Source: a virus
Direction: 5' to 3' (one strand)
DNA: 54,373 nucleotides
IMG/VR virus record: IMGVR_UViG_3300042373_000932
Span: 1-54,373 of that record
The position numbers and the translations under genes are program-made. The notes under the pieces are model-generated. The model had not been told where the DNA came from, ran no database searches, and was given only the letters and a program-made list of their open reading frames with translations. Every line of letters starts with the position of its first letter. Position 1 is the stretch's first letter. Shown here piece by piece: positions 17,460-50,620 of the stretch.

Positions 17460-17461
17460 AA

Positions 17462-17917
17462 ATGAATACAAAAAAAACAATCGGTTTTACCGCAGGTAAT
17501 TTTGACTTACTTCATCCGGGATATATCTATACATTTGAAGAAGCTAAACGTCATTGTGATTATTTTATGGTTTTTTTACAAAGAGACCCATCTGAAACTA
17601 GATTCACAAAATATAAACCTGTCGTTCCTTTATATGAACGATATAAAACATTAATGTCAATTAAATATGTTGATGAAGTGGTCACATATCAAACTGAAGA
17701 AGATTTGATTCAATTAATGGAATTTTACAAACCTGACGTTAGAATTTTAGGCGATGATTATATTGGAAAAAGATTTACCGGAGACCATTTACCTATTAAA
17801 GTAATTTATACAACAAGGTCTCACAATTGGTCAACAACTAAAATTAAAGATTTAATTACAAGACAAACAATCATACAAAATCCGGATATTATTAAAAATT
17901 TAGAATCAAATGATTAA
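17462..17917 (+). CDS. Cytidylyltransferase-like nucleotidyltransferase
   Basis: 151 residues, about the length of glycerol-3-phosphate cytidylyltransferases (TagD type). The G-N-F-D-L-L-H-P-G-Y motif at 12-21 matches the family's HxGH loop, except that the second His is Tyr (Y21). A later W-S-T-T-K-I motif fits the family's second nucleotide-binding motif. The expected reaction is CTP plus a phosphorylated alcohol or sugar giving a CDP-linked donor. Together with the glycosyltransferases it may supply CDP-glycerol or a related donor. The Tyr substitution makes activity uncertain. Confidence 0.78.
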   Translation: MNTKKTIGFTAGNFDLLHPGYIYTFEEAKRHCDYFMVFLQRDPSETRFTKYKPVVPLYERYKTLMSIKYVDEVVTYQTEEDLIQLMEFYKPDVRILGDDYIGKRFTGDHLPIKVIYTTRSHNWSTTKIKDLITRQTIIQNPDIIKNLESND

Positions 17918-19216: not shown

Positions 19217-19217
19217 A

Positions 19218-19940: not shown

Positions 19941-19952
19941 CAGATAAAATTT

Positions 19953-21461: not shown

Positions 21462-21482
21462 ACAAAAAAAAAATAATTAAAA

Positions 21483-22631: not shown

Positions 22632-22632
22632 T

Positions 22633-23580: not shown

Positions 23581-23584
23581 AAAA

Positions 23585-24286
23585 ATGTTTGATTACATTG
23601 TTTGTTTTTATTTTGGAGAAAGAAGAGTTAGAACAACCAATTCATTATTATTATCTGATAGATATTTTTTTGTTAAAAAACATTTAGATTTTATAAAAAA
23701 TAATGAAACAGTTTTAAACGACATTAATAACGTAATTTTAGTTATTAATAATTCAAATGATGACGATTTAAAATCCGTTACAAATATTAAAAATGAATAT
23801 CCCTTCTCAGATAAAATTATTATCATAGGAAGGGATAATTCAAATTATTCTTATGGTGGGTGGAATGAATCATTAATTCATCAAATAAATTTAAATACCC
23901 CATCGTTACACGCATTTCTTTGTGAAGATGATTACATACCTTGTAATGATAATTTTCATAAAAAATTTATAGAATTTTTTAATTCCGATGTTATATATGT
24001 TTGTCAATTATTTATGAATAATCATGCGGCAATTTCAAATGGTTTCATAACTTATAACATAATAAAAGATTATTATAATAATACCAAAGAATTATTTGTG
24101 CTCACTAATAGTTATGATTATAGAAGTGCCGAAATTAACCAAGTTAACTTTTTAAATAATTTTAAAAATTTAAAGTGTGTTGACATCAGTGAAAAATATT
24201 GTTCAAAATTTTTAGATTTCAATAATAGTATTGTTGTTTATGGGAATAAAACCGGTGAAGAATTAATAAAACCAATTTTAGAATAA
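23585..24286 (+). CDS. Glycosyltransferase-like protein of the glycan island, weak
   Basis: 233 residues. A GT-A-like reading is possible: a first strand (DYIVCFYFGERRVRT), a strand ILVINNS where a nucleotide-sugar site would be, GGWNESL, and a C-E-D-D-Y motif that could serve as the metal-binding DxD. None of this is decisive. It lies 4 nt after the methyltransferase stop and overlaps the GNAT gene by 1 nt. The glycosyltransferase call is an inference from weak motifs plus context. Confidence 0.55.
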   Translation: MFDYIVCFYFGERRVRTTNSLLLSDRYFFVKKHLDFIKNNETVLNDINNVILVINNSNDDDLKSVTNIKNEYPFSDKIIIIGRDNSNYSYGGWNESLIHQINLNTPSLHAFLCEDDYIPCNDNFHKKFIEFFNSDVIYVCQLFMNNHAAISNGFITYNIIKDYYNNTKELFVLTNSYDYRSAEINQVNFLNNFKNLKCVDISEKYCSKFLDFNNSIVVYGNKTGEELIKPILE

Positions 24287-24768
24287 TGATAAAATTTAAA
24301 AAATTAGAAGAAGACGACTTACAATTCTTAAACGATGTAAGAAACGAATATTGCGAAGAATTTTTACATGATAGTAGACAATTCACATTAGAAGAAACCA
24401 AACAATGGTTCCATAAATATAATCCGGACTTTTACATTATTACGTTAGACGATGAAAGAATTGGGTATTTTAGACTATCCAACTATTCTGATGTGAATAA
24501 AAATATTTACATTGGTGCCGACATTTCACCAAAATTTAAAGGTAAAGGTTTGGGTAAATTATCTTATGAAAAATTTATACCTTTTTTGTTTGAAACCTAT
24601 AATTTGAATAAAATAAGTTTAGAAGTATTGTCTAATAACATAATTGCTTTAAATTTATATAATAAACTTGGGTTTGTAACCGAAGGTGTTAAACGTCAAG
24701 AAGTTTATAAAAATAATCAATGGGTTGATTCCATTATTATGTCAATATTAAAAAATGAATATGAATAA
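24286..24768 (+). CDS. GNAT-family N-acetyltransferase
   Basis: 160 residues with the GNAT fold. Motif A reads IGADISPKFKGKGLGKLSY, with G-K-G-L-G as the acetyl-CoA pyrophosphate loop; motif B is LEVLSNNIIALNLYNKLGF, followed by the terminal VKRQEVYKNNQW typical of RimJ/RimL and sugar N-acetyltransferases. Next to the DegT aminotransferase it could acetylate the new amino group of the sugar. Its 3' end overlaps the next gene. Confidence 0.85.
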   Translation: MIKFKKLEEDDLQFLNDVRNEYCEEFLHDSRQFTLEETKQWFHKYNPDFYIITLDDERIGYFRLSNYSDVNKNIYIGADISPKFKGKGLGKLSYEKFIPFLFETYNLNKISLEVLSNNIIALNLYNKLGFVTEGVKRQEVYKNNQWVDSIIMSILKNEYE

Positions 24769-25492
24769 TTTAAAATTTGAACTTATTATAGCTTACTATA
24801 AAAGACCTAAAATTGTTTTAAATGCTTTAGAATCTATATTAAAATCCACATATGACAATTGGCATCTAACATTTGTTGATGATTCCGGTGACGATTCTTT
24901 TAAAGAGACCTTTTTAAATTATGGTTTTGATTCTTCTAAAATAACATATTCCCCAATATTAATGTCTGATGACGAAAAAAATAATATAGGAGGTTCAATA
25001 TTTGGTAAGTACGTTAACGACGCTATCCAAAATACCGATGCCGATATTATTATATTAATATGTGATGATGACGCAATATTTCCTGATTATATGGAAAATC
25101 TTAATAAATTTTATACTAAAAATCCTGATAAAATGTGGGGGTATTGTCATGTTGAATTTTATAACCCTGAAATTGAACATTATACCCAATCAACCAAAAC
25201 TAACGGAGACTCATCTTTAGGATTTTCAGATTTAAATGCTTTAACAATCCCAATAATGCCAGTTAATAAAATTGATAGTTCTCAAATTTCTTTTAGAAAA
25301 ACCGCATTTACTGATGGTAATGTTTGGTATCCACATCCGTATACCGTAAGTTTAGATGCCCACGTTTTTCGTAATATGTTTAAGGTTTGGGGATTATGTG
25401 AGTTCACAAATTGTTATGGACAATATAAAGGTTGGTTCGCAAATCAATTAGGGGTTAGAGTTAGAAAAAAAATAGGTACATTTATAAAATAA
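24761..25492 (+). CDS. GT2-like glycosyltransferase, tandem copy 1
   Basis: 243 residues. I chose the ATG at 24761 rather than 24755 because the tandem partner starts with the same MNNLKFEL. GT-A motifs: FELIIAYYKRPK, LTFVDDSGDD and I-C-D-D-D-A as the DxD. Copy 2 (25505) is nearly identical over residues 1-130 and at the C-terminus (NCYGQYKGWFANQLGVR). The middle, residues about 140-200, differs, and this part usually sets acceptor choice in GT-A enzymes. It starts inside the GNAT gene by 8 bp. Confidence 0.8.
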   Translation: MNNLKFELIIAYYKRPKIVLNALESILKSTYDNWHLTFVDDSGDDSFKETFLNYGFDSSKITYSPILMSDDEKNNIGGSIFGKYVNDAIQNTDADIIILICDDDAIFPDYMENLNKFYTKNPDKMWGYCHVEFYNPEIEHYTQSTKTNGDSSLGFSDLNALTIPIMPVNKIDSSQISFRKTAFTDGNVWYPHPYTVSLDAHVFRNMFKVWGLCEFTNCYGQYKGWFANQLGVRVRKKIGTFIK

Positions 25493-25504
25493 TAAAAAAT
25501 AAAT

Positions 25505-26236
25505 ATGAATAATTTAAAATTTGAACTAATAATCGCTTATTATAAAAGACCCAAAATTGTCTTAAACGCGTTAGAATCTATATTAAAATCTACATATGAT
25601 AATTGGCATTTAACATTCGTTGATGATTCCGGTGACGATTCTTTTAAAGAAACTTTTATAAACTACGGGTTTACACCTTCTAAAATAACATACTCACCAA
25701 TATTAATGTCAGATGATGAGAAAATTAAAATAGGTGGGTCAATATTTGGAAAGTACGTTAACGACGCAATACAAACCACAGATGCTGATATCATTATACT
25801 AATATGTGATGACGACGCATTGTTTCCGGATTGTATGGAAAACCTTAATAAATTTTATACCGAAAACCCTGATAAAATGTGGGGGTATTCTCATGTTAAA
25901 TTCTTCAATCCCGAAAAACAACATTATTCAGAATCAACCGATGTACCAAGCGATAGAACATTTAACACATCAAATTTAAATGATTACACATCACCAATTC
26001 AACCATCGTGTAGAGTTGATAGTTCTCAAGTATCTTTTAGAAAAAACGCTTTTACACAAACAAATTTATGGTACCCTTATCCACATACAAAAGATTTAGA
26101 TAGAAATGTTTTTGAAAAATTATATAAAAAAATAGGACTATGTCATTTTACTAACTGCTACGGACAATATAAAGGTTGGTTTGCAAATCAATTAGGTGTT
26201 AGAGCACGAACAGGTAAAGGAGATTTTATTAACTAA
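25505..26236 (+). CDS. GT2-like glycosyltransferase, tandem copy 2
   Basis: 243 residues, a paralogue of the 24761 gene 12 nt upstream. The same GT-A motifs are kept (LTFVDDSGDD, I-C-D-D-D-A, KGWFANQLGVR). Many codons differ silently between the copies while the protein core is unchanged, which points to an old duplication held under selection. Differences cluster in residues about 140-200. It probably adds a related sugar or uses a different acceptor. Confidence 0.8.
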   Translation: MNNLKFELIIAYYKRPKIVLNALESILKSTYDNWHLTFVDDSGDDSFKETFINYGFTPSKITYSPILMSDDEKIKIGGSIFGKYVNDAIQTTDADIIILICDDDALFPDCMENLNKFYTENPDKMWGYSHVKFFNPEKQHYSESTDVPSDRTFNTSNLNDYTSPIQPSCRVDSSQVSFRKNAFTQTNLWYPYPHTKDLDRNVFEKLYKKIGLCHFTNCYGQYKGWFANQLGVRARTGKGDFIN

Positions 26237-26254
26237 ACAACTAAAATAATTTAA

Positions 26255-27001
26255 ATGGCTACATACAGCAAATCAAAGAACGCTAAACCTACCCCTACTC
26301 CGGAAACTACAAGTAAACCGGTTAATAAGAAAGAATTAATTAACCAAATTATTAAAAGAAAAACTAAAGAAAAGTTTTTAACCAACAATCAAAAAAAATA
26401 TTATGATACTTTAATTGACAGTGAAATCACTGTTTGTTCCGGACCTGCGGGTGTTGGTAAAAGTTATATTACAATGAAAGCCGCGATTGACTTACTCGCT
26501 GACCCTGAAACACCATATGAAAAAATTATTATTGTTAGACCCGCTGTTGAAGCTGAAGAAAAATTAGGTTCACTACCAGGTAATGTTGAAGAAAAATTAG
26601 ACCCATACATTTTCCCATCATATTATTTATTAAATAAAATTATTGGGAAAGAATCTAGAGAAAAATTAAAAGAAATCGATGTTATTGAAGTATTTGCCTT
26701 GGCATTTATGAGAGGTATGAACATTGATAATTCTATTTTAATTTTTGAAGAGGGTCAAAATGCCACCCCAAGTCAAATGAAATTACTTTTAACTAGAATT
26801 GGGTTTAACAGTAAATTCTTTATATCCGGTGATGTAGAACAATCAGACAAATATAAAAATAAAACTCATAGTGGTTTATGGGACGCAATTGAAAAATTTA
26901 GAGATAGTGAATATATATCAATTTTTGAATTTAAAGATAAAAAAGATATCGTTAGAAATCCGTTGATTAGTAGAATATTAGACAAGTACGAAGAAAACTA
27001 A
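26255..27001 (+). CDS. phoH: PhoH-like P-loop ATPase
   Basis: 248 residues. Walker A is G-P-A-G-V-G-K-S at 63-70; the Walker B region is I-L-I-F-E-E-G-Q-N, close to the family's DEAQN form but with E-E-G. I-I-V-R-P and the GSLPGNVEEKLDPY segment are PhoH hallmarks. PhoH proteins are common in marine and freshwater phages; their role is unsettled, with RNA-linked ATPase or helicase activity proposed. The N-terminus has a Thr/Pro-rich disordered stretch. The operon ends at a strong terminator just downstream. Confidence 0.92.
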   Translation: MATYSKSKNAKPTPTPETTSKPVNKKELINQIIKRKTKEKFLTNNQKKYYDTLIDSEITVCSGPAGVGKSYITMKAAIDLLADPETPYEKIIIVRPAVEAEEKLGSLPGNVEEKLDPYIFPSYYLLNKIIGKESREKLKEIDVIEVFALAFMRGMNIDNSILIFEEGQNATPSQMKLLLTRIGFNSKFFISGDVEQSDKYKNKTHSGLWDAIEKFRDSEYISIFEFKDKKDIVRNPLISRILDKYEEN

Positions 27002-27020
27002 TTTTAATATATTTTATTAT

Positions 27021-27063
27021 AAAAGATAGGTAAACACAATTTAGTTTACTTATCTTTTTTTTT
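27021..27063 (+). terminator. Long-stem rho-independent terminator
   Basis: A stem of at least 12 bp (AAGATAGGTAAAC with GTTTACTTATCTT, one G-T pair), an 8-nt loop and nine T. It ends the phoH transcript before the 27081 gene. Confidence 0.9.
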
Positions 27064-27080
27064 ATATAACTTTTGTTGAT

Positions 27081-27683
27081 ATGAGAATTGGTATAGAAAT
27101 TAATGGAGTGTTAAGAGATACTTTAGGAAAAATTGAACAAACTTATCAGAAATTTTTAATCGATAAAACTGATGGTATTGAAGACGACGAGTCATTTGAA
27201 TATAAAATGACCTACCCGATAAATAGTTTAACATTAAACGACCATTTTTCATTTCCGGATGATGATGAATTATATTCATTTTTATATGAAGAATTTGCTA
27301 TGGAAATTTTTGGTCACGCACAATCCTCAGAATATAATACATTTATTGATTTAAACGAAATTTATATATCTTTAAGAGATAATCACGATTTATTAATTGT
27401 TTCGGATGAAATAGGAAAATCAAAACCCGCATCATTATTCTTTTTATCAAAATTTGGATGTCAATTAGAAAAAGTAAAATTTTATAGTAATTCAACAATT
27501 AATTCAATGTGGGATGAATTAGATATTTTACTTACATCCAATCCAGCCTTATTATTGGATTATCCGTCAGATAAAATATTAATAAAATATGAAACGGATT
27601 ATAATGAGAATATTACCACAATCCATTCTATAAAATCTATAAAAGAATTGGATGATAAATTAAAACAAATTTTAGAATGTTAA
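27081..27683 (+). CDS. HAD-like protein with altered active site
   Basis: 200 residues. The opening MRIGIEINGVLRDTLGKIEQ has the shape of HAD/5'-nucleotidase motif I (DxDGVLxDT), but the two catalytic Asp positions read Glu and Asn. A later strand-Ser (LLIVSDE) and a Lys (IGKSKPAS) resemble motifs II and III. The fold call is moderate; phosphatase activity is doubtful. It begins 18 nt after the terminator and overlaps the next gene by 7 bp. Confidence 0.62.
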   Translation: MRIGIEINGVLRDTLGKIEQTYQKFLIDKTDGIEDDESFEYKMTYPINSLTLNDHFSFPDDDELYSFLYEEFAMEIFGHAQSSEYNTFIDLNEIYISLRDNHDLLIVSDEIGKSKPASLFFLSKFGCQLEKVKFYSNSTINSMWDELDILLTSNPALLLDYPSDKILIKYETDYNENITTIHSIKSIKELDDKLKQILEC

Positions 27684-27955
27684 AAGTATTAGGAGAAAAC
27701 TATTATGTAGATTTGGATAAAATTGACGATTATGTTCAAATAAAAGCAAAAAAAACCGTCACGTCAGGTGACACTGAAGGGACTACCATAAGTATAATTA
27801 AATACGAAACAATTAAATTAATGTTAGAGATAGTTATGGATGAACCTGAAGAAATTGATGAGCAATTAGGGGCTAAAGGTACTAACAACTTATCAATCCC
27901 ATTTAAACTAGCGTTTAATACTCTATTGTATAAAAAATTAATAAATAAAATATAA
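27677..27955 (+). CDS. Small conserved-type protein, unknown
   Basis: 92 residues. A beta-rich N-terminal half (YVDLDKIDDYVQIKAKKT) and a helical C-terminal half with an acidic E-P-E-E-I-D-E segment. No family recognised. It overlaps the HAD-like gene by 7 bp and is followed after 5 nt by a glycosyltransferase gene, so it is part of the same transcript. Confidence 0.68.
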   Translation: MLKVLGENYYVDLDKIDDYVQIKAKKTVTSGDTEGTTISIIKYETIKLMLEIVMDEPEEIDEQLGAKGTNNLSIPFKLAFNTLLYKKLINKI

Positions 27956-27960
27956 TAAAC

Positions 27961-29022
27961 ATGACACAAGAACAAATTACAAAATTAGAACAGTCGATTC
28001 AAAACATGAAAGATAAAAAGTCAAGGATTTATCTTTTAGTTCAAGACACTAAAGGTAATGCAAAAGCTTCAGTCGCTTACATATACGAGTTAGGTATGGC
28101 ATTATTAAAAAATGGATACAACCCAATTATCTTACACGAAACACCTGATTATACTGGAGTTGGTGAATGGTTAGGTGAGGATTATATGACATTACCACAT
28201 AAAACAATTGAAGGCCAAAATTTAGAAATTGCACCTGAAGATTTAATTGTTATCCCTGAATTATACGGGTTTGTGATGAGTCAAATTTCAAAATTACCTT
28301 GTGGTAAAATTGTATTGTCTCAAGCCCATGACCATATCTTGGAAACATTACAACCAGGCCAGACATGGTCACAATTAGGGTTTTATAAATGTATAACAAC
28401 TTCTGAAGCTCAAAAAGAATATATCGAGAATATTATGAGAGGTATTTCGATAGATGTTTTAAAACCATTTATTTCTGATAAATTTAAACCACATACTTTA
28501 CCATCAAAACCTATTATTGCAATTCATGCTAGAGAACAAAGAGAAGCCCTTAACATGATTAAAAGTTTTTACATTAAATTTCCTCAATACAGATGGATAA
28601 CTTTTAGAGACATGAGAGGACTATCTATTGATGAGTTTGCAAGTGCTATGAAAGATTGTTTCTTATCTGTTTGGATTGATGAAACAAGCTCTTATGGTAC
28701 ATTCCCATTGGAATCTATGAAATGTAAAATACCTGTAGTTGGTTTAGTACCAAATTTAGTTCCTGAATGGATGAATGAAGACAATGGTGTTTGGGTTAAC
28801 AATAAAATCCAAATGGTTGATTTTGTCGCGGACTTTTTACAAAATTGGTTGGAAGACAGTATTAATGAAAATTTAGAAACTGAAATTATTAAAACTGCAG
28901 AAAATTTAAGTACTAAAGAAGATTTTGAAAAAATTTCATTAAACTTATTTGAAGGATATCTAACTAAAAGATTGGAATCATTTGAAGAACAATTAAATAA
29001 ACTACAAACAATAGAAGAATAA
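27961..29022 (+). CDS. GT-B glycosyltransferase (GT4-like)
   Basis: 353 residues. The N-terminal domain has a Rossmann strand (SRIYLLVQDTKGNAKASVAY). The C-terminal domain carries IIAIHAREQREALNMI, then MKDCFLSVWIDETSSYGTFP and L-E-S-M-K-C-K-I-P-V-V-G, the GT4 donor-binding pattern. A Glu-rich coiled-coil-like tail follows. Acceptor unknown. It sits 1 nt before a GT-A gene, so the two may act in sequence. Confidence 0.78.
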   Translation: MTQEQITKLEQSIQNMKDKKSRIYLLVQDTKGNAKASVAYIYELGMALLKNGYNPIILHETPDYTGVGEWLGEDYMTLPHKTIEGQNLEIAPEDLIVIPELYGFVMSQISKLPCGKIVLSQAHDHILETLQPGQTWSQLGFYKCITTSEAQKEYIENIMRGISIDVLKPFISDKFKPHTLPSKPIIAIHAREQREALNMIKSFYIKFPQYRWITFRDMRGLSIDEFASAMKDCFLSVWIDETSSYGTFPLESMKCKIPVVGLVPNLVPEWMNEDNGVWVNNKIQMVDFVADFLQNWLEDSINENLETEIIKTAENLSTKEDFEKISLNLFEGYLTKRLESFEEQLNKLQTIEE

Positions 29023-29023
29023 T

Positions 29024-29830
29024 ATGGAAAATTACTTTGACGTATCAGTTATATTACCGATTAAATCGGCAACCGCACCATTTTTTGAAGATTACTTTAA
29101 GAAATGTATTGAATCATTAAATAATCAAAAATTAAAAATTAATGAATTAGTTATTGTTCACACAAATGAAATACCTTTAGTTGAACTTTTAAAAGATTAC
29201 GATTTTGGTGACTTAAATGTAGTTAAATTAGAATGGGAAAAAGAACCTAATTACGCGGCACAAGTTAATCACGGTGTTAGAAATTCAAAATCTGAATGGG
29301 TTTCATTATTTGAATTTGATGATGAATATTCTAACATATGGTTTAAGAATGTTGACATCTACTCAAAAGCATACCCTAATATGGATGCGTTTTTACCAAT
29401 CGTTGTTGATACAGACCAACAAGGTAAATTTGCCGGGTTTACTAATGAAGCAACTTTCGCGGCAAACTTTACTCCGGAAATGGGTGTATTAACTCACGAT
29501 ACTTTATTAGATTATCAAAACTTCCAATCATCAGGAATGGTAATCAAAAAATCAAAATTTGTTGATTATGGATTAATCAAACCTTCGTTTAAATTAACGT
29601 TTGGGTATGAATTATTTTTACGATTAACACATAATTCAATTAACATTATGTCTATCCCAAGAATTGGTTATAAACATACTAATTTAAGAGATGGGTCAAT
29701 CTTTTGGAATTACAAAAATGGTAGAGATGTCTTAACTCCGGAAGAAGTTAAATTTTGGATTGAGTCCGCAAAAAAAGAATATTTTTTCATTAATGACAGA
29801 GCGATAAAATTTGAATCTCAAGAAGTTTAA
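29024..29830 (+). CDS. GT2 (GT-A) glycosyltransferase
   Basis: 268 residues. It opens VSVILPIKSATAPFFEDYFK, and has a nucleotide-binding strand (NELVIVH), an A-A-Q-V-N-H-G segment and F-E-F-D-D-E-Y as the metal site. A later FKLTFGYELFLRLTH segment matches the family's acceptor ED/YE region. Its stop overlaps the start of the sigma-factor gene by 1 nt, so regulation and glycan synthesis are on one message. Confidence 0.8.
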   Translation: MENYFDVSVILPIKSATAPFFEDYFKKCIESLNNQKLKINELVIVHTNEIPLVELLKDYDFGDLNVVKLEWEKEPNYAAQVNHGVRNSKSEWVSLFEFDDEYSNIWFKNVDIYSKAYPNMDAFLPIVVDTDQQGKFAGFTNEATFAANFTPEMGVLTHDTLLDYQNFQSSGMVIKKSKFVDYGLIKPSFKLTFGYELFLRLTHNSINIMSIPRIGYKHTNLRDGSIFWNYKNGRDVLTPEEVKFWIESAKKEYFFINDRAIKFESQEV

Positions 29831-30579
29831 TGACTGAAAATATTAATTTAACAGGGGATACAAATGTTGAGTTAAAAAAGAAAGGTAGAAAACCAACCCA
29901 ATTAAATTATTTTGATGTCCGAGAAGAAATGGCGGTAATAAGATTTTTAGAGTCCACGTCTTACGAAGAAAAAAATAAAATATACAATGAGTTTTTAAAA
30001 AAACCTTTAGACAAAATGATATCTTCAATCATACGAAGATACAAATTATATAGAAAAGACATGGATTTCACTGATATACATGTAGATACTCACTCGTTTT
30101 TAATGACAAAGATAGATAAGTTTAAACCTTCTAGAGAAAAGAAGGCTTATTCTTATTTTGGTACAATATGTAAAAACTATTTAATGGGTCAAATCATTAA
30201 AGACCAAAAAGAAACAAATAGAAAAATATCTTATGAAGATATTTCAACTAATTTGGAGAATAATGAAAATTTTTCCTATTACATAGAAAATGACGGACTA
30301 GATTCTGAAAAAGTAATTAAACACTTTTTAATTGAATTAGACAGATTCATTAAAGAAGAAAATTTATCAGAAAATGAAATTAAATTAGGACACGCACTTT
30401 ACGACATTTTTGAAAATTATGACTCGATATTTATTGGTAACGATAATAACAAGTTTAATAAAAATATTATTTTATTGTCTTTAAGAGAAATGACCAATCT
30501 TTCAACTAAAGAAATTAGGGGTTCAATGAGAAAATACAAAAATATGTATTACTCATTGATTCAACAGATGGTTAATTAA
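29830..30579 (+). CDS. gp55-like late sigma factor (sigma-70 region 2-like)
   Basis: 249 residues. Residues about 55-130 fit sigma-70 region 2: a core-binding helix (LDKMISSIIRRYKLYRK), then K-F-K-P-S-R-E-K-K-A-Y-S-Y-F-G-T-I-C-K-N-Y, where the aromatic residues would melt the -10 element. The C-terminal part (NLSTKEIRGSMRKYKNMYY) resembles a short helix-turn-helix, as in region 4. A basic N-terminal stretch (KKKGRKPTQ) precedes these. T4 gp55 is the comparable late sigma factor. It would direct host RNA polymerase to late genes, probably the TATTTATA sites here. Confidence 0.75.
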   Translation: MTENINLTGDTNVELKKKGRKPTQLNYFDVREEMAVIRFLESTSYEEKNKIYNEFLKKPLDKMISSIIRRYKLYRKDMDFTDIHVDTHSFLMTKIDKFKPSREKKAYSYFGTICKNYLMGQIIKDQKETNRKISYEDISTNLENNENFSYYIENDGLDSEKVIKHFLIELDRFIKEENLSENEIKLGHALYDIFENYDSIFIGNDNNKFNKNIILLSLREMTNLSTKEIRGSMRKYKNMYYSLIQQMVN

Positions 30580-40286: not shown

Positions 40287-42203
40287 TTATCTCAATTCTC
40301 TTAAGTCAAATGTTCTAACACCATCAACGGTAATTCTTCCGTAAAAACGGTTATTTACCATCTTTTTCGCGTAACGAGTCATTATACCTTTAATCGGTGT
40401 AAAGTTGAATGGGTTGTACATTGTAGGTGTTAATTGTAATGGTACATACGGAGCGTAAATGTATCCTGTGTCTAACAATGATGTTCCTTTGTGTCCAATT
40501 AACACTTGGTTAGCTGGGAAGTAAGGGTCACGGTAAACTTGGTAACGACCTGCTAATGTACCTACTCTTTCAATACCCATGTTGTATTGGTCTTGCTCAG
40601 GAGACGCATTAGATACGTGGAAGTACTCTAAATCATCAAAGATAGCTGAAACTTCAGAAGAAACAACAATCCAGTTTGCTCCACCTCTTAATGTAGATTT
40701 GTGGATTTGTGCAGACAATTGGTTGATTGCTGTAATTAATGTTTGGTTCCAATCTTTTTGAGTATAAGAAGTTGTTTGAGAAATTCTTCTCCAACCATTG
40801 TAATCCCAACGTAAGTTCCATGCTGCACCTTTACGTAAATCTCTTAAGATTTCACGGTCGATTTCAGCCGCAACTTGTTCAGATAATAAAGCTGTTAATT
40901 CAGCTTCAGCATCGATGTTGTGGAAAGCCGCAACGTCTTGAGCTAACTCAGGAGACCATTGTGCTCTTAATTTTCTTTCTGTAACAGATACAGTAACTGA
41001 ATCTAAATCGAAAGAAACCTCACCGATTTTATCTTCAAATTCTAACTCTTCGTAACGTCTGAAAGCCGCTGCGAATGAAGTTCCTGATACCGCAGTTTCG
41101 ATAGTAGTACCTGTGTAACCATCTAAAGATGTAGAATCACAATCAGCACATACCGGACAAGATAAATCAACTTCTAACCAAATACATCCATCAGCGTCAC
41201 AAACATTTTTGAATGAACCACCGTTACCTGTATTAGATGCTGTACCCGCTGGGTTACCTGAAGGGAAGTAAGTTTGAGTAGTATTACCATATTTCACAAT
41301 ACCTCTACCATAGATTTGAGTCACAACTCTAAATAATAAAGAACCTGTACTAACTGTACATGGTGAAGTTGAAGAAACAGTTAAACCATTTCCTGTGTAA
41401 ACGATTAAGTCAGATAAGAATGATTCAGTATCCATTTCGTTACCATCAGGTCCGATTAATTTTCCTGCACCTGTATCAGCAAAACCACACATTTTAATGA
41501 TAACTTTTCTTGTGTTACCTGAAGCAATAACTGCTGCTCCATCAGTTGTTCCTGAAATGTTAGCATCAACTAAAACTCCACCTGTCCATTTTTGGATAGT
41601 TGTAGTAGCAGTGATTGCTGACCAACGACCTTTAGAATAATCAAATAATCCTGGAGGGTCTAATTGAGCCTCATTTCCTTCATAGAATAAATCATAAAGA
41701 TTTTTTTCGTATACAGGGTTATAAGTTCCTGAACCTGTAGTGTAACCTGCATTTGGATTACCACCTGTACCGTTAGGTGAAGGTAATGTACCATCATTGT
41801 AGTTACCCGGAGCTCCAACAGGTGCATAGTGCTCACCTGAATATTGTCCTGCAATACCATCTTTATATCCTTGGATTTTTGGTACAAAGTAGAATAATTT
41901 ACCGATTGGTAAGTTCATAGCTTGTACAGAAACGATGTCATTCGCTAATAATTTAGAGAATACTCTTCTTACGATAGGAAATACAACAGTTTCGAATGAA
42001 CCTGAAGACCCGTCAGAAGTTGCTTCGTTTATTAAGAAAGACGCTTGGTTCTCATATAACTGAGCTACGTTTTCTCTTAAGTGACCTTTAAGACCTTCTA
42101 GAAATCCTAATTTGTCCCATTTATTAATTGTGTCCTCTTTAATAACTTTAAGGTGTTTTAACCCGATGTTACCAACTAGACCTGATTCTAATAATGCTCC
42201 CAT
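40287..42203 (-). CDS. 23: Major capsid protein, T4 gp23-like
   Basis: 638 residues. After a helical propeptide, FLINE at 56-60 matches the (I/L)-x-E prohead cleavage consensus, with mature protein from A61 (T4 gp23 is cut after E65). The mature start (GSFETVVFPIVRRVFSKLLA, then DIVSVQAMNLPIG) is diagnostic of gp23. Compared with T4 gp23 (521 residues) it has an insertion of Gly/Thr-rich sequence, including a Cys-rich stretch (C-P-V-C-A-D-C) near residue 345. The C-terminal part (WIVVSSEVSAIFDDLEYF; GIMTRYAKKMVNNRFYG) is highly conserved in type. It forms the hexameric lattice of the head. Confidence 0.95.
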   Translation of the reverse strand: MGALLESGLVGNIGLKHLKVIKEDTINKWDKLGFLEGLKGHLRENVAQLYENQASFLINEATSDGSSGSFETVVFPIVRRVFSKLLANDIVSVQAMNLPIGKLFYFVPKIQGYKDGIAGQYSGEHYAPVGAPGNYNDGTLPSPNGTGGNPNAGYTTGSGTYNPVYEKNLYDLFYEGNEAQLDPPGLFDYSKGRWSAITATTTIQKWTGGVLVDANISGTTDGAAVIASGNTRKVIIKMCGFADTGAGKLIGPDGNEMDTESFLSDLIVYTGNGLTVSSTSPCTVSTGSLLFRVVTQIYGRGIVKYGNTTQTYFPSGNPAGTASNTGNGGSFKNVCDADGCIWLEVDLSCPVCADCDSTSLDGYTGTTIETAVSGTSFAAAFRRYEELEFEDKIGEVSFDLDSVTVSVTERKLRAQWSPELAQDVAAFHNIDAEAELTALLSEQVAAEIDREILRDLRKGAAWNLRWDYNGWRRISQTTSYTQKDWNQTLITAINQLSAQIHKSTLRGGANWIVVSSEVSAIFDDLEYFHVSNASPEQDQYNMGIERVGTLAGRYQVYRDPYFPANQVLIGHKGTSLLDTGYIYAPYVPLQLTPTMYNPFNFTPIKGIMTRYAKKMVNNRFYGRITVDGVRTFDLRELR

Positions 42204-42236: not shown

Positions 42237-43763
42237 TTATTTTAATTTTGACATTAAATCTTTCATTCTCAAGAACTGTGGATTCTCATATGTTTTAGAT
42301 TCAATTAAGTTAACTGCCGACCCTGTTGAAGGTGCTTTAGCAATTGTTCTTTCTAATGATTCATTCATAGGTTGAGATGCAGTCCCTGTAAGTTCATCTT
42401 TAATGACTTTGTATAAGTTTTTAGATTCTTTAATGTTTTCAACACCGTCAAATCTTCTTAAGATATTTATTTTTTCTTGTTTTGATGTTGAATGTTCTGT
42501 GAACAAACGAGTAGCGTAAGCTAAGTTTGAATTAAACACTGCAACCTCATTCAATTTATTTCTAAATACGTTAAGAGCTTTTCTGTATTCTTCATTCTTT
42601 TCTCTTAAAACTTTTAATTCACTTGTGTTTTGGTTCTCTTTAATTGCGGTATTAAAAGATGAGTGAGCTCTTGGTTTTGGTAACCCACCTCTTCTGAAAT
42701 TACTTCCATTACCTAATGTACGAGAAGCCTCTTTAGGTTCAACTTTTTTAGTTGTATTAGCAATTTTAGTTGTTTGCTCTTTTGTTTCTGTTTTTTTAAC
42801 AGATTTCATTTTTCCTTCAAGATTTTCACCTTCTTTATATTCAAATTTAGCTTTACCTGTTCCCATTGTTGGATTAACTGATTTTTTCACAGTTTTAAAT
42901 CCACCATTTTGGTTTGGTTTTGCATCATATTTAAATTTACTAGGATTACCCATTCCGGTTCCTTTTGGTTTTACAGACATTTTAGATTCCATCATTGTGT
43001 CATCATCCATATCCATATCGTCTTGTTCTTCTATTTCCATGTCCATGTCGTCTTGCTCTTCTAACTCTGAATCATCTTCGTCATCAAAAGAAATTTCATA
43101 AACGATTTCTTCATCGTCCATATCTTCTTCTTCGTCAAACATCATTTCATCACTTTCTCCAAATTCAGAATCTTCGTCGTCATTATCAAATACTCTAGAG
43201 ATAATATCTTCGATACCTTCAGAATCCATGTCCTCTTCTTCGTCATCGAAGTCCATATCTTCTTCTTCGTCGTCAAATTCTTCGAACATTTCTAATTCAT
43301 CTTCACCTTCACCAACAATCATATATTCTTTGTTGTTCTCTTCGTCTTTTAAACTGATGTTACCAGAATCATCTTTAGTAACAACAATATTATCTTCAGG
43401 TCCCATCAATTGGAATACACGTAAGATTTCTTCATCATCTTCTACGTCAGTAAGGTCTATGGTGTCTTCATCATCCATATCCATATCCATATTATCGGTA
43501 TCCATGTCATCTTCCATATCCATATCAACATCTACGTCGTCCATTTCTGTATCGTCCATATCTGTATCCATATCCATGTCATCCATGTCAACCTCAGTGT
43601 CAATCTCCTCATCATCTTGTTCTGTAAGAGATTCTTTTACTAGTTCTTTGATTTCTTGCGACATTGTCGAAGCAAGTATTCCTTTTGCATTTTCCGCTAC
43701 CGCCTCTTCCAAATTTTTCATTTGGATGATAGCTTCTTCAACTAAAGATTTTTCTTTTGCCAT
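42237..43763 (-). CDS. 22: Prohead core scaffold protein, gp22-like
   Basis: 508 residues. The N-terminal helix (MAKEKSLVEEAIIQ) is followed by I-K-E and L-T-E sites near 40 and 48; then an Asp/Met/Glu repeat region (DMDMDTDMDDTEMDD type), a small folded insert, more acid repeats and a helical C-terminal domain. T4 gp22 is the acidic scaffold degraded by gp21 after head assembly. It is longer and far more acidic than T4 gp22 (269 residues). The order gp21, gp22, gp23 supports the call. Confidence 0.85.
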   Translation of the reverse strand: MAKEKSLVEEAIIQMKNLEEAVAENAKGILASTMSQEIKELVKESLTEQDDEEIDTEVDMDDMDMDTDMDDTEMDDVDVDMDMEDDMDTDNMDMDMDDEDTIDLTDVEDDEEILRVFQLMGPEDNIVVTKDDSGNISLKDEENNKEYMIVGEGEDELEMFEEFDDEEEDMDFDDEEEDMDSEGIEDIISRVFDNDDEDSEFGESDEMMFDEEEDMDDEEIVYEISFDDEDDSELEEQDDMDMEIEEQDDMDMDDDTMMESKMSVKPKGTGMGNPSKFKYDAKPNQNGGFKTVKKSVNPTMGTGKAKFEYKEGENLEGKMKSVKKTETKEQTTKIANTTKKVEPKEASRTLGNGSNFRRGGLPKPRAHSSFNTAIKENQNTSELKVLREKNEEYRKALNVFRNKLNEVAVFNSNLAYATRLFTEHSTSKQEKINILRRFDGVENIKESKNLYKVIKDELTGTASQPMNESLERTIAKAPSTGSAVNLIESKTYENPQFLRMKDLMSKLK

Positions 43764-43785
43764 TTGTGTTTAAGTTATTTTAATA

Positions 43786-44156: not shown

Positions 44157-44882
44157 TTAATATCCTAAATAATCGTTTAATTTTTTCATTAAGTCAAGTG
44201 ATTTATTTCCTGAATCACCAACATGTCTTTCAATACTCATTTTTTTCTCTTCTTCTAAGTTCTCGTCATACAGATGTTTGTCATCTTTATTTAAGAATAG
44301 ATACGCTCCCGGAGTTGAAGGTGAGGACACCAAGTCAAAACAAATTAATTCAAAATCGTCTTGTACTTCATTTTGTTCACCAATCTTTTTAAGAGAACCT
44401 ACACCTCTTGACGATATACCTAAAGTAACACCTTGTCTTAAGTAATTTGCTGCCAAATCTCCTTTGGTTGAACAAATACCTCTTTCGTGGTATCCCGGTG
44501 ATGTCAATAATTTAATCTTTCCCATTAGGACATTACCTTCCCACCATACTTCGGTGATTGCGTGAGAAACTCTATCTAAATCAATTAAAGATGATTCCGG
44601 GTGATTTAACTCTGAAAGAGCTGTACCCTTTTTAATCATTTTTTTATAATTATCAGCTTCTCTTTTTAATATACGTTCAGGGTATAATCGACCATTTCTA
44701 TTTGGTGTATCATATTTTTGTAATACAGCATAAAATTCAAATGGTTTTGAGTGGTCTAACATTTCATTAGATTCTCTTATTAATGTTTCGTTACGATTAT
44801 CCTTTGGATTAATATATCCGGCATCGTATTCAACTAATATACCTTTTCCTGATTCGTTCGGTTGTAATATTCTTAAACTCAT
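44157..44882 (-). CDS. 21: Prohead core protease, T4 gp21-like
   Basis: 241 residues. The herpesvirus-assemblin-like serine protease pattern is visible: H94 in E-L-N-H-P-E-S-S, S157/S158 in G-V-T-L-G-I-S-S-R-G-V-G, and a D183 strand (ICFDLVSSPSTPGA). T4 gp21 cuts head proteins after (I/L)-x-E during maturation. Length and the neighbouring scaffold and capsid genes agree. The C-terminal acidic tail (ENLEEEKK) may be removed in maturation. Confidence 0.88.
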   Translation of the reverse strand: MSLRILQPNESGKGILVEYDAGYINPKDNRNETLIRESNEMLDHSKPFEFYAVLQKYDTPNRNGRLYPERILKREADNYKKMIKKGTALSELNHPESSLIDLDRVSHAITEVWWEGNVLMGKIKLLTSPGYHERGICSTKGDLAANYLRQGVTLGISSRGVGSLKKIGEQNEVQDDFELICFDLVSSPSTPGAYLFLNKDDKHLYDENLEEEKKMSIERHVGDSGNKSLDLMKKLNDYLGY

Positions 44883-44905: not shown

Positions 44906-45376
44906 TTAAACATTTTCGGTTTGTAACGTATCTTTAACGGATTTGATTTTTTTAGTTAGATAAAACTTAAAATAATTGTTGTCATAAAAGTTATCGTTGT
45001 AGATTTTATTTGTAATTTTTAATAATGTATCTTTAATTTGTTTTGATTTAAAATCGAGGTTTTCTTCTATAACATAGAAATTAACTTCTAAATTCATAAA
45101 TGATTTTTTACCCAAATTTAATCCACTTGACCTTAAATCTAAATCTACAATAAATTTTGTATCAAAAATTTTATTATTTAACGACTCGTAAACCGAGTGT
45201 TTAATACCCCTACTTAAATTTAAAACTGTTCTCGACCAATTATCGGATTCATAGATTGGTTCAACCCATGTTTGTACGTTTAAGTAAAGTGATTTCAAGT
45301 TTACAGAATCAACTGTCCCATAAACAACTTTCGCGGTTTTGAAACCTGTTAGTTGAGAGGTTTTCCCCTTTTTCAT
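44906..45376 (-). CDS. Virion-type protein upstream of gp21, unknown
   Basis: 156 residues, basic N-terminus (MKKGKTSQLTGFKTAKV), mixed alpha/beta, with several long strands (FIVDLDLRSSGLN; FMNLEVNFYVIEENLD) and a Lys-rich helix at the end. In T4-like phages short completion or tail-connector proteins are found near here, but I see no diagnostic motif. The intergenic gap upstream (45377-45468) is shared with the divergent bS21 gene. Confidence 0.7.
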   Translation of the reverse strand: MKKGKTSQLTGFKTAKVVYGTVDSVNLKSLYLNVQTWVEPIYESDNWSRTVLNLSRGIKHSVYESLNNKIFDTKFIVDLDLRSSGLNLGKKSFMNLEVNFYVIEENLDFKSKQIKDTLLKITNKIYNDNFYDNNYFKFYLTKKIKSVKDTLQTENV

Positions 45377-45468
45377 TAATTTTCATATTTTTCCTTTTAT
45401 TTTTAAAAAAGATAGGTAAAATAAGGGGTCAGGTCAAATTTTTTGTTATTTTGATATATATGTTATAT

Positions 45469-45663
45469 ATGTTAATAGTTAAATTAGATAAAAATACACC
45501 AATAGAGAAAGCACTGAAACTCTATAAAAGTAAAGTTATCAAGACACGTCAAAGTTCTGAACTTAATAAGCGAAAAGAATTTATCAAACCTTCCGTAAAA
45601 AAAAGAAACGTGTTAGCTAAGGCTAAACACGTTCAATTAAAATATTATTCGGATAACGATTAA
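45469..45663 (+). CDS. rpsU: Ribosomal protein bS21 homologue
   Basis: 64 residues from the ATG at 45469; in-frame starts upstream (TTG at 45451, ATG at 45460) would add residues absent from bS21. The protein opens MLIVKLDKNTPIEKALKLYK and has the hallmark ELNKRKEFIKPSVKKRNVLA, matching the R-x-(R/K)-x-(F/E)-x-K-P-S core of Bacteroidetes bS21. bS21 joins the small subunit near the anti-Shine-Dalgarno sequence, which it helps occlude in Flavobacterium ribosomes. The phage copy could replace host bS21 and bias translation to phage messages. Plus strand within the minus capsid block; stop overlaps the convergent gene by 4 bp. Confidence 0.87.
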   Translation: MLIVKLDKNTPIEKALKLYKSKVIKTRQSSELNKRKEFIKPSVKKRNVLAKAKHVQLKYYSDND

Positions 45664-46379
45664 AGATTCTCGTTTAAACTTTTAAGTTTAAAATACGTTA
45701 ATTTGTCGTACTTCTCTGATAACACTTTTGTAAGTGTTTCATCAATTCTAGTTTTCACTGAATTATCTTCGGACGAATTCTTCATTGCTTTTAATTTATC
45801 AACTACATTTTCTTTAAGGGTGTTATATTTCACGGATAATTCACCATCATCTTCAGATAACAATTTAACTATTTCAGCTTTGTCAGATTCACTTAAAGTA
45901 TCAATATAATTCTTAATAGTTTTATTTGCAACACTAACCATAGTTGATAATGGAAGTTCAATACCTTTGGATTCTGTAATTGGAAGTTTTTTCAAATTCT
46001 CAATAATTAAATTTTTACTTTTAATTCTTGATTCAATGGTTAAAACATCTGTTGAAAATAAGTTATCGATATTTTCGTATGAGTTATTAGATTTAGTATT
46101 TCTAACCCACATATTTAATTTTTTCAAATCTGCCGGTAAAATTTTATTCACAGCATTTTCATATAGAGTAATACATTCGTGGATGTATTCTCTTGAATAT
46201 GATTCACTCAAACCTTTTTTAGAGTTTAACTCATCATACATATAGAAAATCTTACTAACATTTTTATTCTCTAATACAAGTTTTTTAAATGTTTTTAATT
46301 CGTCTTTAAATGTGTCGTTTTTATACGACTCAAGTAATACGTTTTCTATCTTCGATTTTAATATACCAAACTTTGTCAT
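45660..46379 (-). CDS. Helical virion-type protein between portal and gp21, unknown
   Basis: 239 residues, almost all helical and Lys/Glu/Ser-rich. The N-terminal helix (MTKFGILKSKIENVLLESYK) contains L-L-E, a possible prohead-protease site. The position between gp20 and gp21 is where T4 keeps small core genes (gp67, gp68), so a prohead core protein is a fair guess. Its stop overlaps that of the bS21 gene on the other strand. The TATTTATA element lies 13 nt before its ATG. Confidence 0.7.
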   Translation of the reverse strand: MTKFGILKSKIENVLLESYKNDTFKDELKTFKKLVLENKNVSKIFYMYDELNSKKGLSESYSREYIHECITLYENAVNKILPADLKKLNMWVRNTKSNNSYENIDNLFSTDVLTIESRIKSKNLIIENLKKLPITESKGIELPLSTMVSVANKTIKNYIDTLSESDKAEIVKLLSEDDGELSVKYNTLKENVVDKLKAMKNSSEDNSVKTRIDETLTKVLSEKYDKLTYFKLKSLNENL

Positions 46380-46400: not shown

Positions 46401-48269
46401 TCAATCATTTAAGATTTTATCCAATTCTTTTTCCATATCACCTAAAGAATTTCTTGCTCGAGATAAATCAATGTAAGAATCGTCTTCAGTTAGATTACCA
46501 CTTTCCAATAAGATATTCAAATTATCTCGTTTGACTGATTCAGGAGTTATTTCAGCTTCACCACCCGGTGCCGGTGCTCCACCCGGTTCAGGTGCTCCAC
46601 CCGGTTCAGGTTCTCCACCTAAGTCAAGTCCTCCACCTAAGTCAGATTCAAGACCTCCTCCACCTCCTCCACCAGGTGGTGGGGCAGGAGCAGCCGCTCC
46701 AACGGCCGTAGTTCCGGATTTACTCGCGTATAATTTATCTATAGTATCAAATACACCCGTATGAGTAATTATGGTTGCGGTATTAGTTAATTCCGCACCA
46801 ACCGCTTTTTCAATACGTTGTTGTTGTAAATCTAATTTAATTTCTTCATCAGAGAATCCTAATACGTGTTTCTTAGCCCATGTAACAGATACCGGAGCGA
46901 TACCTTCGATAGCCGCAACAGCATCTTTATACAATAAAATTTTCTCTTTCCAAATATCAATTTTTAATAAATCTGCTTGAGATGATGGGTTTGTAAGAGC
47001 CAATGTAAAGTTTGACAATTCATCCTCAAATCCTAATAAGAATAAATGAATAATTGCAACTTTATTTAATTCGGCAATCATAGATTTTTGAATTCTATTA
47101 ATTGTTCTTGCGAAACGAATATCCATTAAAGATAAATTTTTACCATCACCCGTTACTTCCTCAAAACCTAAAAACGCTTTAGGAACACGAAGTGCTGTTA
47201 ATAATTTCTTTTGGATATATTCAATATCGGCAATCTCCGCCAAATTTTGTGCTCCCGGTAAGGTATCAATTGGACTTGGTGCCGCAGGGTCACGAACAGG
47301 AATAAAGTAATCTTGGTCAACAGCCATTTGATTAAATCTCATATCTACATTCCCTGTTTGAGAATCAACCACTTGACTTCTTTTAAATTTGTTAGCCACA
47401 CGTTGTACATATGGTTCAACATCTTTATCGTCCATATTACCAACATAAACTTTAAATACACGTCTTTCAGGAGCTCTTGAAGTTCTATAAATCAACATCG
47501 CATCTTCTGAAAGTAATAATTGTTTCCAAATACGTCTCGCTTTCTCCAACATAGAAGTACCATAAGGAAGTTTTCTATCATCACCTAATAATCTAAAATG
47601 GGCAATCTCCCATGAATTGAATTCCATGTCTTTAATTTTCCATTTGAAACGTAATCCTTTACTATCCGCAGGTTCTTCAACATTTGCTGATTTCGCAGCC
47701 ATACCTCTCTCCAAACGTTCTATTTCAATGTTTGGTAATTGCATACACCCAACAATGCCTTTTTCCGCATCCAATTTTAGATACACGAAGTTATCTCCAT
47801 ATTTACAAGTATTTCTTGTCCACATAGGTAAATTAGTATTTAAATCTAATACGTTGTTAAATAAGTCAGTTAAGATTCCTTTAATTCTTTTTGATTCAGA
47901 ATAAATCTGTAACATATATCCATTTTGGTCAACAGTTGTTGATTCTTCACCATAGATATCCAAAGCGGCAGAAATTTCAGGAGTATACTCCATCGATTCA
48001 TAATCATAAAATGAAGCTAAACGAGTTGGTTCATAATATACCGCTTGAGTATATAAATTACTTTCAATTTTAGTCCATTGATTGGCTAGATAATAAGTTT
48101 GTTGTGCCTGTAATTTTTCTCTCTCGTATTCGGCTTTAGACGTGGTTTTTAATAATTCCTTCTTATCTAACTGATATACGGGATAATCTTGATTCAATAA
48201 CGAATTTGGTCCAAATGCTTTGGATAACCTTTGCCAAACTGTTAAATCATTATTTTGATTGTTTTCCAT
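46401..48269 (-). CDS. 20: Portal protein, T4 gp20-like
   Basis: 622 residues. The gp20 signatures are plain: TRLASFYDYESMEYTPEISA, then LDIYGEESTT, WTRNTCKYGDNFVYLKL, and later LRVPKAFLGFEEVTGDGKNL and RFARTINRIQKSMIAELNKV. The last 120 residues form a Gly/Pro/Ala/Glu low-complexity stretch followed by a short helix (YIDLSRARNSLGDMEKELDK), an extension not found in T4 gp20. It forms the 12-fold ring where DNA enters and the tail attaches. Confidence 0.92.
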   Translation of the reverse strand: MENNQNNDLTVWQRLSKAFGPNSLLNQDYPVYQLDKKELLKTTSKAEYEREKLQAQQTYYLANQWTKIESNLYTQAVYYEPTRLASFYDYESMEYTPEISAALDIYGEESTTVDQNGYMLQIYSESKRIKGILTDLFNNVLDLNTNLPMWTRNTCKYGDNFVYLKLDAEKGIVGCMQLPNIEIERLERGMAAKSANVEEPADSKGLRFKWKIKDMEFNSWEIAHFRLLGDDRKLPYGTSMLEKARRIWKQLLLSEDAMLIYRTSRAPERRVFKVYVGNMDDKDVEPYVQRVANKFKRSQVVDSQTGNVDMRFNQMAVDQDYFIPVRDPAAPSPIDTLPGAQNLAEIADIEYIQKKLLTALRVPKAFLGFEEVTGDGKNLSLMDIRFARTINRIQKSMIAELNKVAIIHLFLLGFEDELSNFTLALTNPSSQADLLKIDIWKEKILLYKDAVAAIEGIAPVSVTWAKKHVLGFSDEEIKLDLQQQRIEKAVGAELTNTATIITHTGVFDTIDKLYASKSGTTAVGAAAPAPPPGGGGGGGLESDLGGGLDLGGEPEPGGAPEPGGAPAPGGEAEITPESVKRDNLNILLESGNLTEDDSYIDLSRARNSLGDMEKELDKILND

Positions 48270-48850: not shown

Positions 48851-50620
48851 TTATCTTGTACCAAATAACCAGCCATATTTCATATAATCGTCTCGACTTA
48901 TATTTCCATTACTAAATTGACCAATTCTTTCTCGAGTATTTGGTATTACGGGGTTAAACGCTAATGATTCACTTACATTGTCATTATTAGTGACCGCCCA
49001 AGAATCAATCATCGCTTTAGTATGTTCAGTAACTTTAGTTAATTTACTAAACGATGATTCAGCAACGTAGGTTGCCATCGCAATAGACATGATTAAATCG
49101 TCGTGATGACCTTTTTGGTGGTCAGGTCTACCATTCATATAAATAAATGTATTCATTTCATTATACAAACGAGAACTATAAATTCTAAATCCATGTCTCA
49201 TTACTTCTTCAAACGAAGCAATAATTTGAACTCTTTTATTATTAAAGTTTATTCCCGGAATTTTCTCCGCAGCTTTTGGGTCGTATTTCCATTTGTTTGC
49301 CGTGTCAACACCATCAACATATAAATCTTTATAATTCATTTCTTGAAGTTTTCTTGATGTTGAAACACCCATACCTCCAGTGATATCTATTACCACAAAA
49401 CAAGAATAGTTTGTCGCCCATTTGTGACAAATTTCCGCCATAGTGTCCGGAGGTAATTTACCCACATACTCAGCGACTTGTTCTTGAGTATCAAAATCGA
49501 CAATTTGGAATGAACTAAAATCTTCAGAATCCCCACGAGAAACGTCGACACCCATAATGTATTTATGTCCAATCACAGGTTCTTTCCAAATCCAAAGAGC
49601 ATTCCCCATTAACTTTGATATAGGTTCAAGAATCATATTTTCACGAATCTTTTGCATCATAAGAGAATCAAATACGTTATCCCCCGAACCTAAGAAGTTA
49701 CATTCTAACTCTTGGGATACTTTACGTTTATCGTATTTTAATTTCTTAACCATCGCCTCAAACCAAGATGAACAAGGTTTATACCCGGCATCCATAATAA
49801 TTCTTAACTCTTTATAATTTCTATTTTCATAAGGTATTTTAGACCAATCAAGAAATTCATCTGGTTTATAATCTTCTTTATTCAATAGGAAATGAATTAT
49901 ATCATCAGTTTTTACCAAGAATAAATCTTTAGTATAACGTGGGTCACGATACCAAAACATCTCGGTAATTTTGAAGTCATTCATATTACGTAATGCTTGG
50001 TCATATATTTCGTAGTAAATTGGGTCGTATCCGTTTGGAGTTGAAACAACAATTACTTTACCCCCCGTAGATAGGGACGCCATACAAGCAGCCCAAAAGT
50101 CACTGTCAGCTTCGATAAACGCCGCCTCGTCAAATACAAGTATTGTTGGTGTAAACCCACGCAAGGCATCTTTCGATGTCGCAACGGCTTTAACCTCACA
50201 ACCATTTGTTAATTTATAATGTTTTTGGGAATTTTTTGCTTTATCAAAATCTACACCTGTCCAAGACGGCCATTGAGCAACGAACGCTTTTATTTTATTA
50301 GCCATCTCCAGTGAAGTATCCAACTTATTGGCGATAATCAATATTTTTTCGGGGGTTTCTTTTCTTGCGAATACTAACTTTCGTGACATCCAAGCCGCGG
50401 TAACTGTTGATACCCCGGCCTGTCTGTACTTTAATGCAATGTTTTCATTGTATTCTTCGTAATCTTCTAATAAAGATAATTGGTCAGGAAAAAGTTCTAA
50501 TGGAACATATTTTTTAACCGTATTATCATATGTTTCTAAATACGTTCTAAGTGCGTATTCAACATCTCGATTACATTTTACGTATTCAATTAATACTTGT
50601 TCTTTTGTTAAATTTGACAT
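48851..50620 (-). CDS. 17: Terminase large subunit, T4 gp17-like
   Basis: 589 residues. The ATPase domain has the terminase Walker A variant R-Q-A-G-V-S-T (66-72), an I-L-I-I-A-N strand and Walker B I-L-V-F-D-E-A (D164, E165), with S-T-P-N-G as coupling motif III. The RNase H-like nuclease domain has G-V-D-V-S-R-G-D-S-E-D, F-V-V-I-D-I-T-G and G-H-H-D-D-L-I-M-S, supplying its acidic metal ligands. It pumps DNA through the portal and cuts concatemers. The gene is 15 nt after the 50636 gene. Confidence 0.95.
   Translation of the reverse strand: MSNLTKEQVLIEYVKCNRDVEYALRTYLETYDNTVKKYVPLELFPDQLSLLEDYEEYNENIALKYRQAGVSTVTAAWMSRKLVFARKETPEKILIIANKLDTSLEMANKIKAFVAQWPSWTGVDFDKAKNSQKHYKLTNGCEVKAVATSKDALRGFTPTILVFDEAAFIEADSDFWAACMASLSTGGKVIVVSTPNGYDPIYYEIYDQALRNMNDFKITEMFWYRDPRYTKDLFLVKTDDIIHFLLNKEDYKPDEFLDWSKIPYENRNYKELRIIMDAGYKPCSSWFEAMVKKLKYDKRKVSQELECNFLGSGDNVFDSLMMQKIRENMILEPISKLMGNALWIWKEPVIGHKYIMGVDVSRGDSEDFSSFQIVDFDTQEQVAEYVGKLPPDTMAEICHKWATNYSCFVVIDITGGMGVSTSRKLQEMNYKDLYVDGVDTANKWKYDPKAAEKIPGINFNNKRVQIIASFEEVMRHGFRIYSSRLYNEMNTFIYMNGRPDHQKGHHDDLIMSIAMATYVAESSFSKLTKVTEHTKAMIDSWAVTNNDNVSESLAFNPVIPNTRERIGQFSNGNISRDDYMKYGWLFGTR

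Follow-up and report, generated by a model that had tools for sequence, protein, structure and literature searches.

An SD-less Bacteroidetes-type bS21 gene within the head-gene cluster of a phage, possibly made outside the feedback loop of host rpsU

The window (the whole stretch of DNA analysed, a linear IMG/VR record of 54,373 bases) carries one copy of a gene for ribosomal protein bS21. The gene lies within a cluster of T4-type head genes and its leader has no Shine-Dalgarno (SD) sequence, as is general among the phage genes of the window, whereas most host rpsU genes have a strong one. The explanation that fits best, in which we place middling confidence, is that the phage bS21 joins the host 30S subunit, keeps the ribosomes blind to SD sequences, and is itself made outside the feedback of the host. 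Among the ribosomal proteins carried by viruses, the bS21 of phages is the commonest.

The reading frame at 45469-45663 on the plus strand gave a clean translation of 64 residues. It matched the Pfam profile PF01165 (Ribosomal_S21) with an E value of 3e-10 and 40.1 bits, above the curated cut-off of 27, and PHROG 21469 (‘ribosomal protein S21’) with an E value of 1.8e-5. Its best relative in the PDB was the bS21 of F. johnsoniae (7jil_z, E 2.6e-7). These matches, together with the tree described below, bore out an earlier note on this DNA, which had called the protein a Bacteroidetes-like bS21 and proposed the profile search, and by its sequence the gene is a Bacteroidetes-type bS21. The AF2 model had helices at residues 12-36 and 41-63 (pLDDT 79.1, pTM 0.38). 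Foldseek returned nine PDB matches for it, all nine of them chains of ribosome entries yet all with E values of 1.1 or more, and a VIA comparison gave Z scores of 4.0-5.3 at an rmsd of 6.0-7.2; the comparison of predicted folds by itself decides nothing on identity. At least 599 stretches in IMG/VR matched a search pattern and, among the matches listed, 579 encoded a relative and near relatives were found on contigs of up to 318 and 322 kb (L032 and L072). Compared with the window, dN and dS were 0.02 and 0.376 for L032, and 0.131 and 1.194 for L046; dS was saturated in four of the eight window comparisons, and dN/dS was low in the close, unsaturated ones. Because of the IMG/VR relatives and these substitution figures, the comparison indicates a maintained gene. 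For cultured phages, six records of the phage collection matched, at a maximum identity of 52.2%, and none of the six was a named isolate. A second in-frame ATG was present at 45460, 9 nt upstream of 45469. The start at 45469 was preferred since relatives of the L046 group have the upstream ATG in another frame, where it would give rise to a very short upstream ORF. The two ATGs of the window lie in repeated TATATATGT (45460-45471).

The genes that define the setting of bS21 are as follows, the four head genes having been assigned by Pfam and PHROG-type profile searches.

40287-42203, minus strand: major capsid protein (MCP, gp23-like)
44157-44882, minus strand: prohead protease (Peptidase_S77, gp21-like)
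44906-45376, minus strand: hyp_44906, 156 aa, the divergent neighbour of bS21 and conserved together with it; its model is confident and the fold has no name
45469-45663, plus strand: bS21 gene, 64 aa, with S21, V23, I24, Q28 and H54 in F. johnsoniae numbering
45660-46379, minus strand: hyp_45660, the convergent neighbour, 239 aa, whose stop and that of bS21 share 4 nt
46401-48269, minus strand: portal (gp20-like)
48851-50620, minus strand: terminase large subunit (TerL)

The bS21 gene is on the plus strand within this minus-strand T4-type cluster of MCP, protease, portal and TerL genes, about 0.7 kb from the portal gene and about 3.3 kb from the MCP gene. It had been described as placed against the capsid genes; it is inside the head-gene cluster, but the wording was loose, with two unnamed genes flanking it and the MCP gene at that distance. 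As far as tested, bS21 is, as was also claimed, the sole plus-strand gene between 39074 and 54369. The test covered the longest other plus-strand ORF in that range, a Ser-rich frame of 181 aa at 43228-43773, which was not accepted as a gene, being antisense to 42237-43763 and carrying stops in 22 of 143 tblastn matches. We compared 184 phage loci, many of them cut by contig ends and some from contigs fetched twice, which amounted to 95 distinct 1-kb neighbourhoods. A match to hyp_44906 was found in 182 loci, to hyp_45660 in 179, to the protease in 174 and to the portal in 164, and no match to any of the four shared the strand of bS21. TerL identity to the window was at least 77.5% in the 36 loci in which at least 200 TerL residues could be aligned.

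Leaders were scored with RNAduplex by pairing the 25 nt that precede each start of bS21 with a 16S tail. All 70 distinct rpsU leaders of F. johnsoniae-like hosts (80 loci) scored -13 kcal/mol or lower, with a median of -19.8, whereas none of the 55 distinct phage leaders did so (median -1.8). Just one phage leader reached -8, or two when an alternative anti-SD was also allowed. The window-type leader scored -1.9; it has no SD and falls short of the extended SD of autoregulated rpsU. In a broader draw of Bacteroidota, in which all 118 genomes have a bS21, 118 host genes were read: the leader scored -13 or lower in 80 genes and was weaker in 38, and with either anti-SD it scored -8 or lower in 91 and was weaker in 27. 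A ‘Bacteroidia-like’ subset of 30 genes, defined by a rough pattern for starts that missed the likewise weak L385, had 18 leaders at -13 or lower and 8 weaker than -8. Three loci in which no start was found (L258, L266, L267) and one with a short upstream (L079) were left out of the leader counts, L273 was left out of the 119 host loci, and genome G100, whose gene is cut by contig ends, was not included.

The same pairing was calculated for 49 window genes, bS21 included (57 listed minus eight with non-ATG starts or at the window edge). The median was -1.2, against -1.1 in shuffles, and three of the 49 genes scored -6 or lower (2.3% in shuffles). The frequency of A in these leaders was 0.65, 0.61, 0.65 and 0.65 at -3, -6, -12 and -13, positions where A is named as a determinant of initiation in F. 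johnsoniae (McNutt et al. 2023, PMC9976891). Judged by pairing, the leader of phage bS21 is the default of its genome, unlike the regulatory leader of host rpsU. Since this default is SD-less, the absence of an SD from phage bS21 may be neutral and carry no special selection. The SD contrast of phage bS21 and host rpsU looks new: no title or abstract on the SD of phage bS21 genes was found in a search that was thin on subscription journals and preprints, and a term search of the main text of Chen et al. (2022, PMC9723584) gave no ‘rpsU’, ‘autoregul’ or ‘promoter’.

In the bS21 tree (177 rows and 64 columns), a weak tree with long branches flagged, all 46 phage rows were on one side of a branch with support of 100/97, apart from bacterial bS21. 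The cellular rows nearest to the phage clade were L350, L387, L378 and L351 (node 94/92, next node 94/35, long branches), and the bS21 genes of all four are SD-less. These genes on the nearest cellular branches are like the phage gene in having no strong SD, but unlike it they are chromosomal; no phage families were found among the 19 flanking proteins scanned at SD-less cellular copies. Because these nearest relatives are also SD-less, no loss of the SD in the phage has to be assumed, and the phage may have inherited an SD-less bS21. Cellular SD-less bS21 genes (at L388:8049-10041, L389:9236-10099 and L390:8725-9864) were observed beside a sigma-70 gene in G107 and G092 and beside DUF2797 in G107 and G057. 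G107 and G092 hold a second bS21 copy with a strong SD, and the SD-less extra copy is possibly a regulated alternative of the host. A second phage form was considered for L238, which has 77% identity to F. johnsoniae bS21 and His54. It was rejected, having no head-gene neighbours and a near-match to cellular L325 and L327, and was judged to be bacterial DNA in an IMG/VR record; L238 was left out of the SD, residue and motif (ATATTTATA, below) counts of the phage rows. L325, L327 and L238 share His54 and a leader with TGAGATGT, which may match an alternative anti-SD. It would fit that of Chryseobacterium-like bacteria, and rescoring with this anti-SD left the phage leaders weak.

The working that we propose draws on published systems. 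In F. johnsoniae, rpsU is autoregulated: ribosomes without bS21 read its strong SD (below -13 kcal/mol), whereas replete ribosomes are SD-blind, and ribosomes without the C-terminus of bS21 start SD-less messages poorly and rpsU well (McNutt et al. 2023, PMC9976891). The bS21 of pelagiphage HTVC008M enters E. coli ribosomes (Mizuno et al. 2019, PMC6375957). From these publications we infer that phage bS21 would be incorporated, would sequester the tail and would act on rpsU. Made during head assembly, it would replace host bS21 in host 30S subunits and keep the 3' tail of 16S rRNA tucked away. The ribosomes would remain bS21-replete and SD-blind, and SD-less, A-rich messages of both host type and phage would initiate best. 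Replete ribosomes could translate the phage bS21 gene, outside the host bS21 feedback loop, because this gene is without the extended SD of host rpsU. Surplus phage bS21 would then hold host rpsU off, and the bS21 pool would turn over to the phage form. That the SD-less gene both escapes the feedback and captures it in this way, silencing rpsU through the host's own autoregulation so that the pool is replaced without a protease, is put forward tentatively. If true, it would answer the question of how an autoregulated ribosomal protein of the host comes to be displaced by that of a phage. McNutt et al. (2023, PMC9976891) speculated on a phage protease for getting phage bS21 into ribosomes, and the SD contrast is a simple alternative to it.

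The N-terminal helix bears on another reading, in which the changed helix makes ribosomes with phage bS21 favour phage over host messages (Chen et al. 2022; Mizuno et al. 2019). The residues of the phage proteins that differ from F. johnsoniae were S21 in 41, V23 in 43, I24 in 45 and Q28 in all of 46 distinct proteins, and Chen et al. (PMC9723584) report significant divergence at Arg21, Phe23, Asp25 (position 24 in the present register) and Thr28 of this helix. However, leaders in the window, without SDs and rich in A, resemble the F. johnsoniae determinants, as judged by base frequencies and SD pairing, and we consider such selection rather unlikely. The idea of the earlier note that a phage bS21 could change which messages are read was not borne out by the same genes, which look like ordinary SD-less, A-rich Bacteroidetes messages and in which no phage-specific initiation signal was found.

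A lowering of general host translation by phage bS21, aided by phage-supplied factors, is improbable. With the pelagiphage protein, the only phage bS21 put to such a test, E. coli ribosomes kept about 5% of wild-type activity (Mizuno et al. 2019, PMC6375957), a result that also weighs against the working proposed above, but that test spanned distant hosts. Moreover, phages need very high translation late in infection, and Chen et al. (PMC9723584) found that related phages transcribe bS21 with the late structural genes. Their RNA data also speak against the suggestion that bS21, being alone on its strand, is timed differently from its neighbours.

The features found between hyp_44906 and bS21 are listed below.

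45377-45468, no strand: divergent intergenic region, 92 bp between the starts of hyp_44906 and bS21
45409-45414, minus strand: TATCTT, candidate -10/-7 element of hyp_44906, found by eye, 18 nt from TTTGAC
45433-45438, plus strand: GTCAAA (TTTGAC on the minus strand), candidate -33/-35 element of hyp_44906
45453-45462, plus strand: GATATATATG, in the bS21 leader, a weak variant of ATATTTATA with two mismatches in the 9-mer

The gap between the two starts was 75-108 nt in all 29 relatives measured, and the 4-nt overlap of the bS21 and hyp_45660 stops was present in 23 of 28. GTCAAA was kept in 51 of the 55 distinct phage bS21 upstreams, where shuffles expect 0.9, and may form part of the hyp_44906 promoter. 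ATATTTATA with at most one mismatch was found upstream of 13 of the 49 window genes, against 1.65 expected from the genome-wide rate and 5 in the opposite orientation. Exact copies on the coding strand, at most 45 nt from the starts, preceded 7310-9910, 30607, 34709, 36211, 38809, 42237-43763 and 45660-46379. The motif, which we take to resemble the T4-type late element, may serve phages of this group as a late promoter. It was present with at most one mismatch in 25 of the 55 phage bS21 upstreams (about 9.5 expected from shuffles; these rows are related and not independent), versus 3 of 80 for host rpsU. The promoter motifs near bS21 are hints drawn from related sequences, and are weak for timing.

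At 1e-3 the window hyp_44906 protein matched neither Pfam nor PHROG, it had no PDB profile match at an E value of 1, and the best PHROG E value among 28 relatives was 0.0027. Its alpha/beta model was confident (pLDDT 88.6, pTM 0.82) and matched an unnamed myovirus protein with an E value of 3.3e-11; no PDB entry was matched at 1e-3. Among these phages the protein occurs as widely as bS21, and it has an invariant IVDLDLR.SG motif. From gene order, its position is presumably comparable with that of T4 gp67/gp68. Either hyp_44906 or hyp_45660 is probably the bS21_CN of Chen et al.

This constant neighbourhood raises a non-ribosomal role for bS21, within the head or as cargo of the virion (packaging was raised by Chen et al.), which we consider very improbable. 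The fixed site among head genes is consistent with it, as is the divergent hyp_44906, always on the opposite strand; against it, the protein retains the residues with which this family binds the ribosome. We know of no bS21 with a head function.

Position 54 of the window protein is His, an imidazole ring in place of the Tyr of F. johnsoniae, and all 46 distinct phage proteins have His (15) or Tyr (31). In autoregulated rpsU as described by McNutt et al. (2023), Tyr54 stacks on A1534. Chen et al. (PMC9723584) describe a ring residue at 54, either Tyr or another one, which is His in a few, and argue that an aromatic or imidazole ring would keep the stacking. The earlier suggestion that phage bS21 bears on the hidden anti-SD is plausible with such a ring, and His54 is the main uncertainty for tail sequestration; if it works badly, phage bS21 would turn host rpsU on. 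The least probable reading is that His54 weakens sequestration and yields SD-reading ribosomes: the 15 of 46 contrast with Tyr54 throughout the 70 distinct F. johnsoniae-like host leaders-plus-proteins, and Y54A favours SD messages, its ribosomes translating SD-bearing rpsU-gfp about 3-fold more (PMC9976891), but SD-reading ribosomes would not serve the window genes with their few paired leaders, two cellular genes (L325 and L327) also have His54, and in the view of Chen et al. His should stack.

The phage bS21 gene, its context and the basic hypothesis are already known, and the window is a member of a group published in 2022. Chen et al. (PMC9723584) reported 47 Bacteroidetes phage genomes with a strand-reversed bS21 between two hypotheticals in the region of TerL, portal, protease and MCP, and had already proposed substitution for host bS21. 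Their clades a-e, from freshwater Bacteroidetes phages, share with the window this arrangement, Tyr54 or His54 and the Bacteroidetes type of bS21, and their size range spans that of the closest large contigs here (318 and 322 kb, among the matches listed); the SD of the bS21 leader does not seem to be treated in their main text. They also report sugar genes like the run at 16239-30579 on the plus strand of the window, which holds glycosyltransferases, a DegT/DnrJ aminotransferase and a heptose kinase/adenylyltransferase-like protein. The bS21 of pelagiphage HTVC008M is likewise borne by a myovirus, but is of alphaproteobacterial type, with another host and origin (Mizuno et al. 2019). The F. 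johnsoniae bS21 belongs to the same family, has the same 64 residues and a comparable anti-SD-contact region, with about 44% identity over the aligned part, by eye. Its rpsU gene has an extended SD and encodes Tyr54, whereas the phage gene is without the extended SD and encodes His54.
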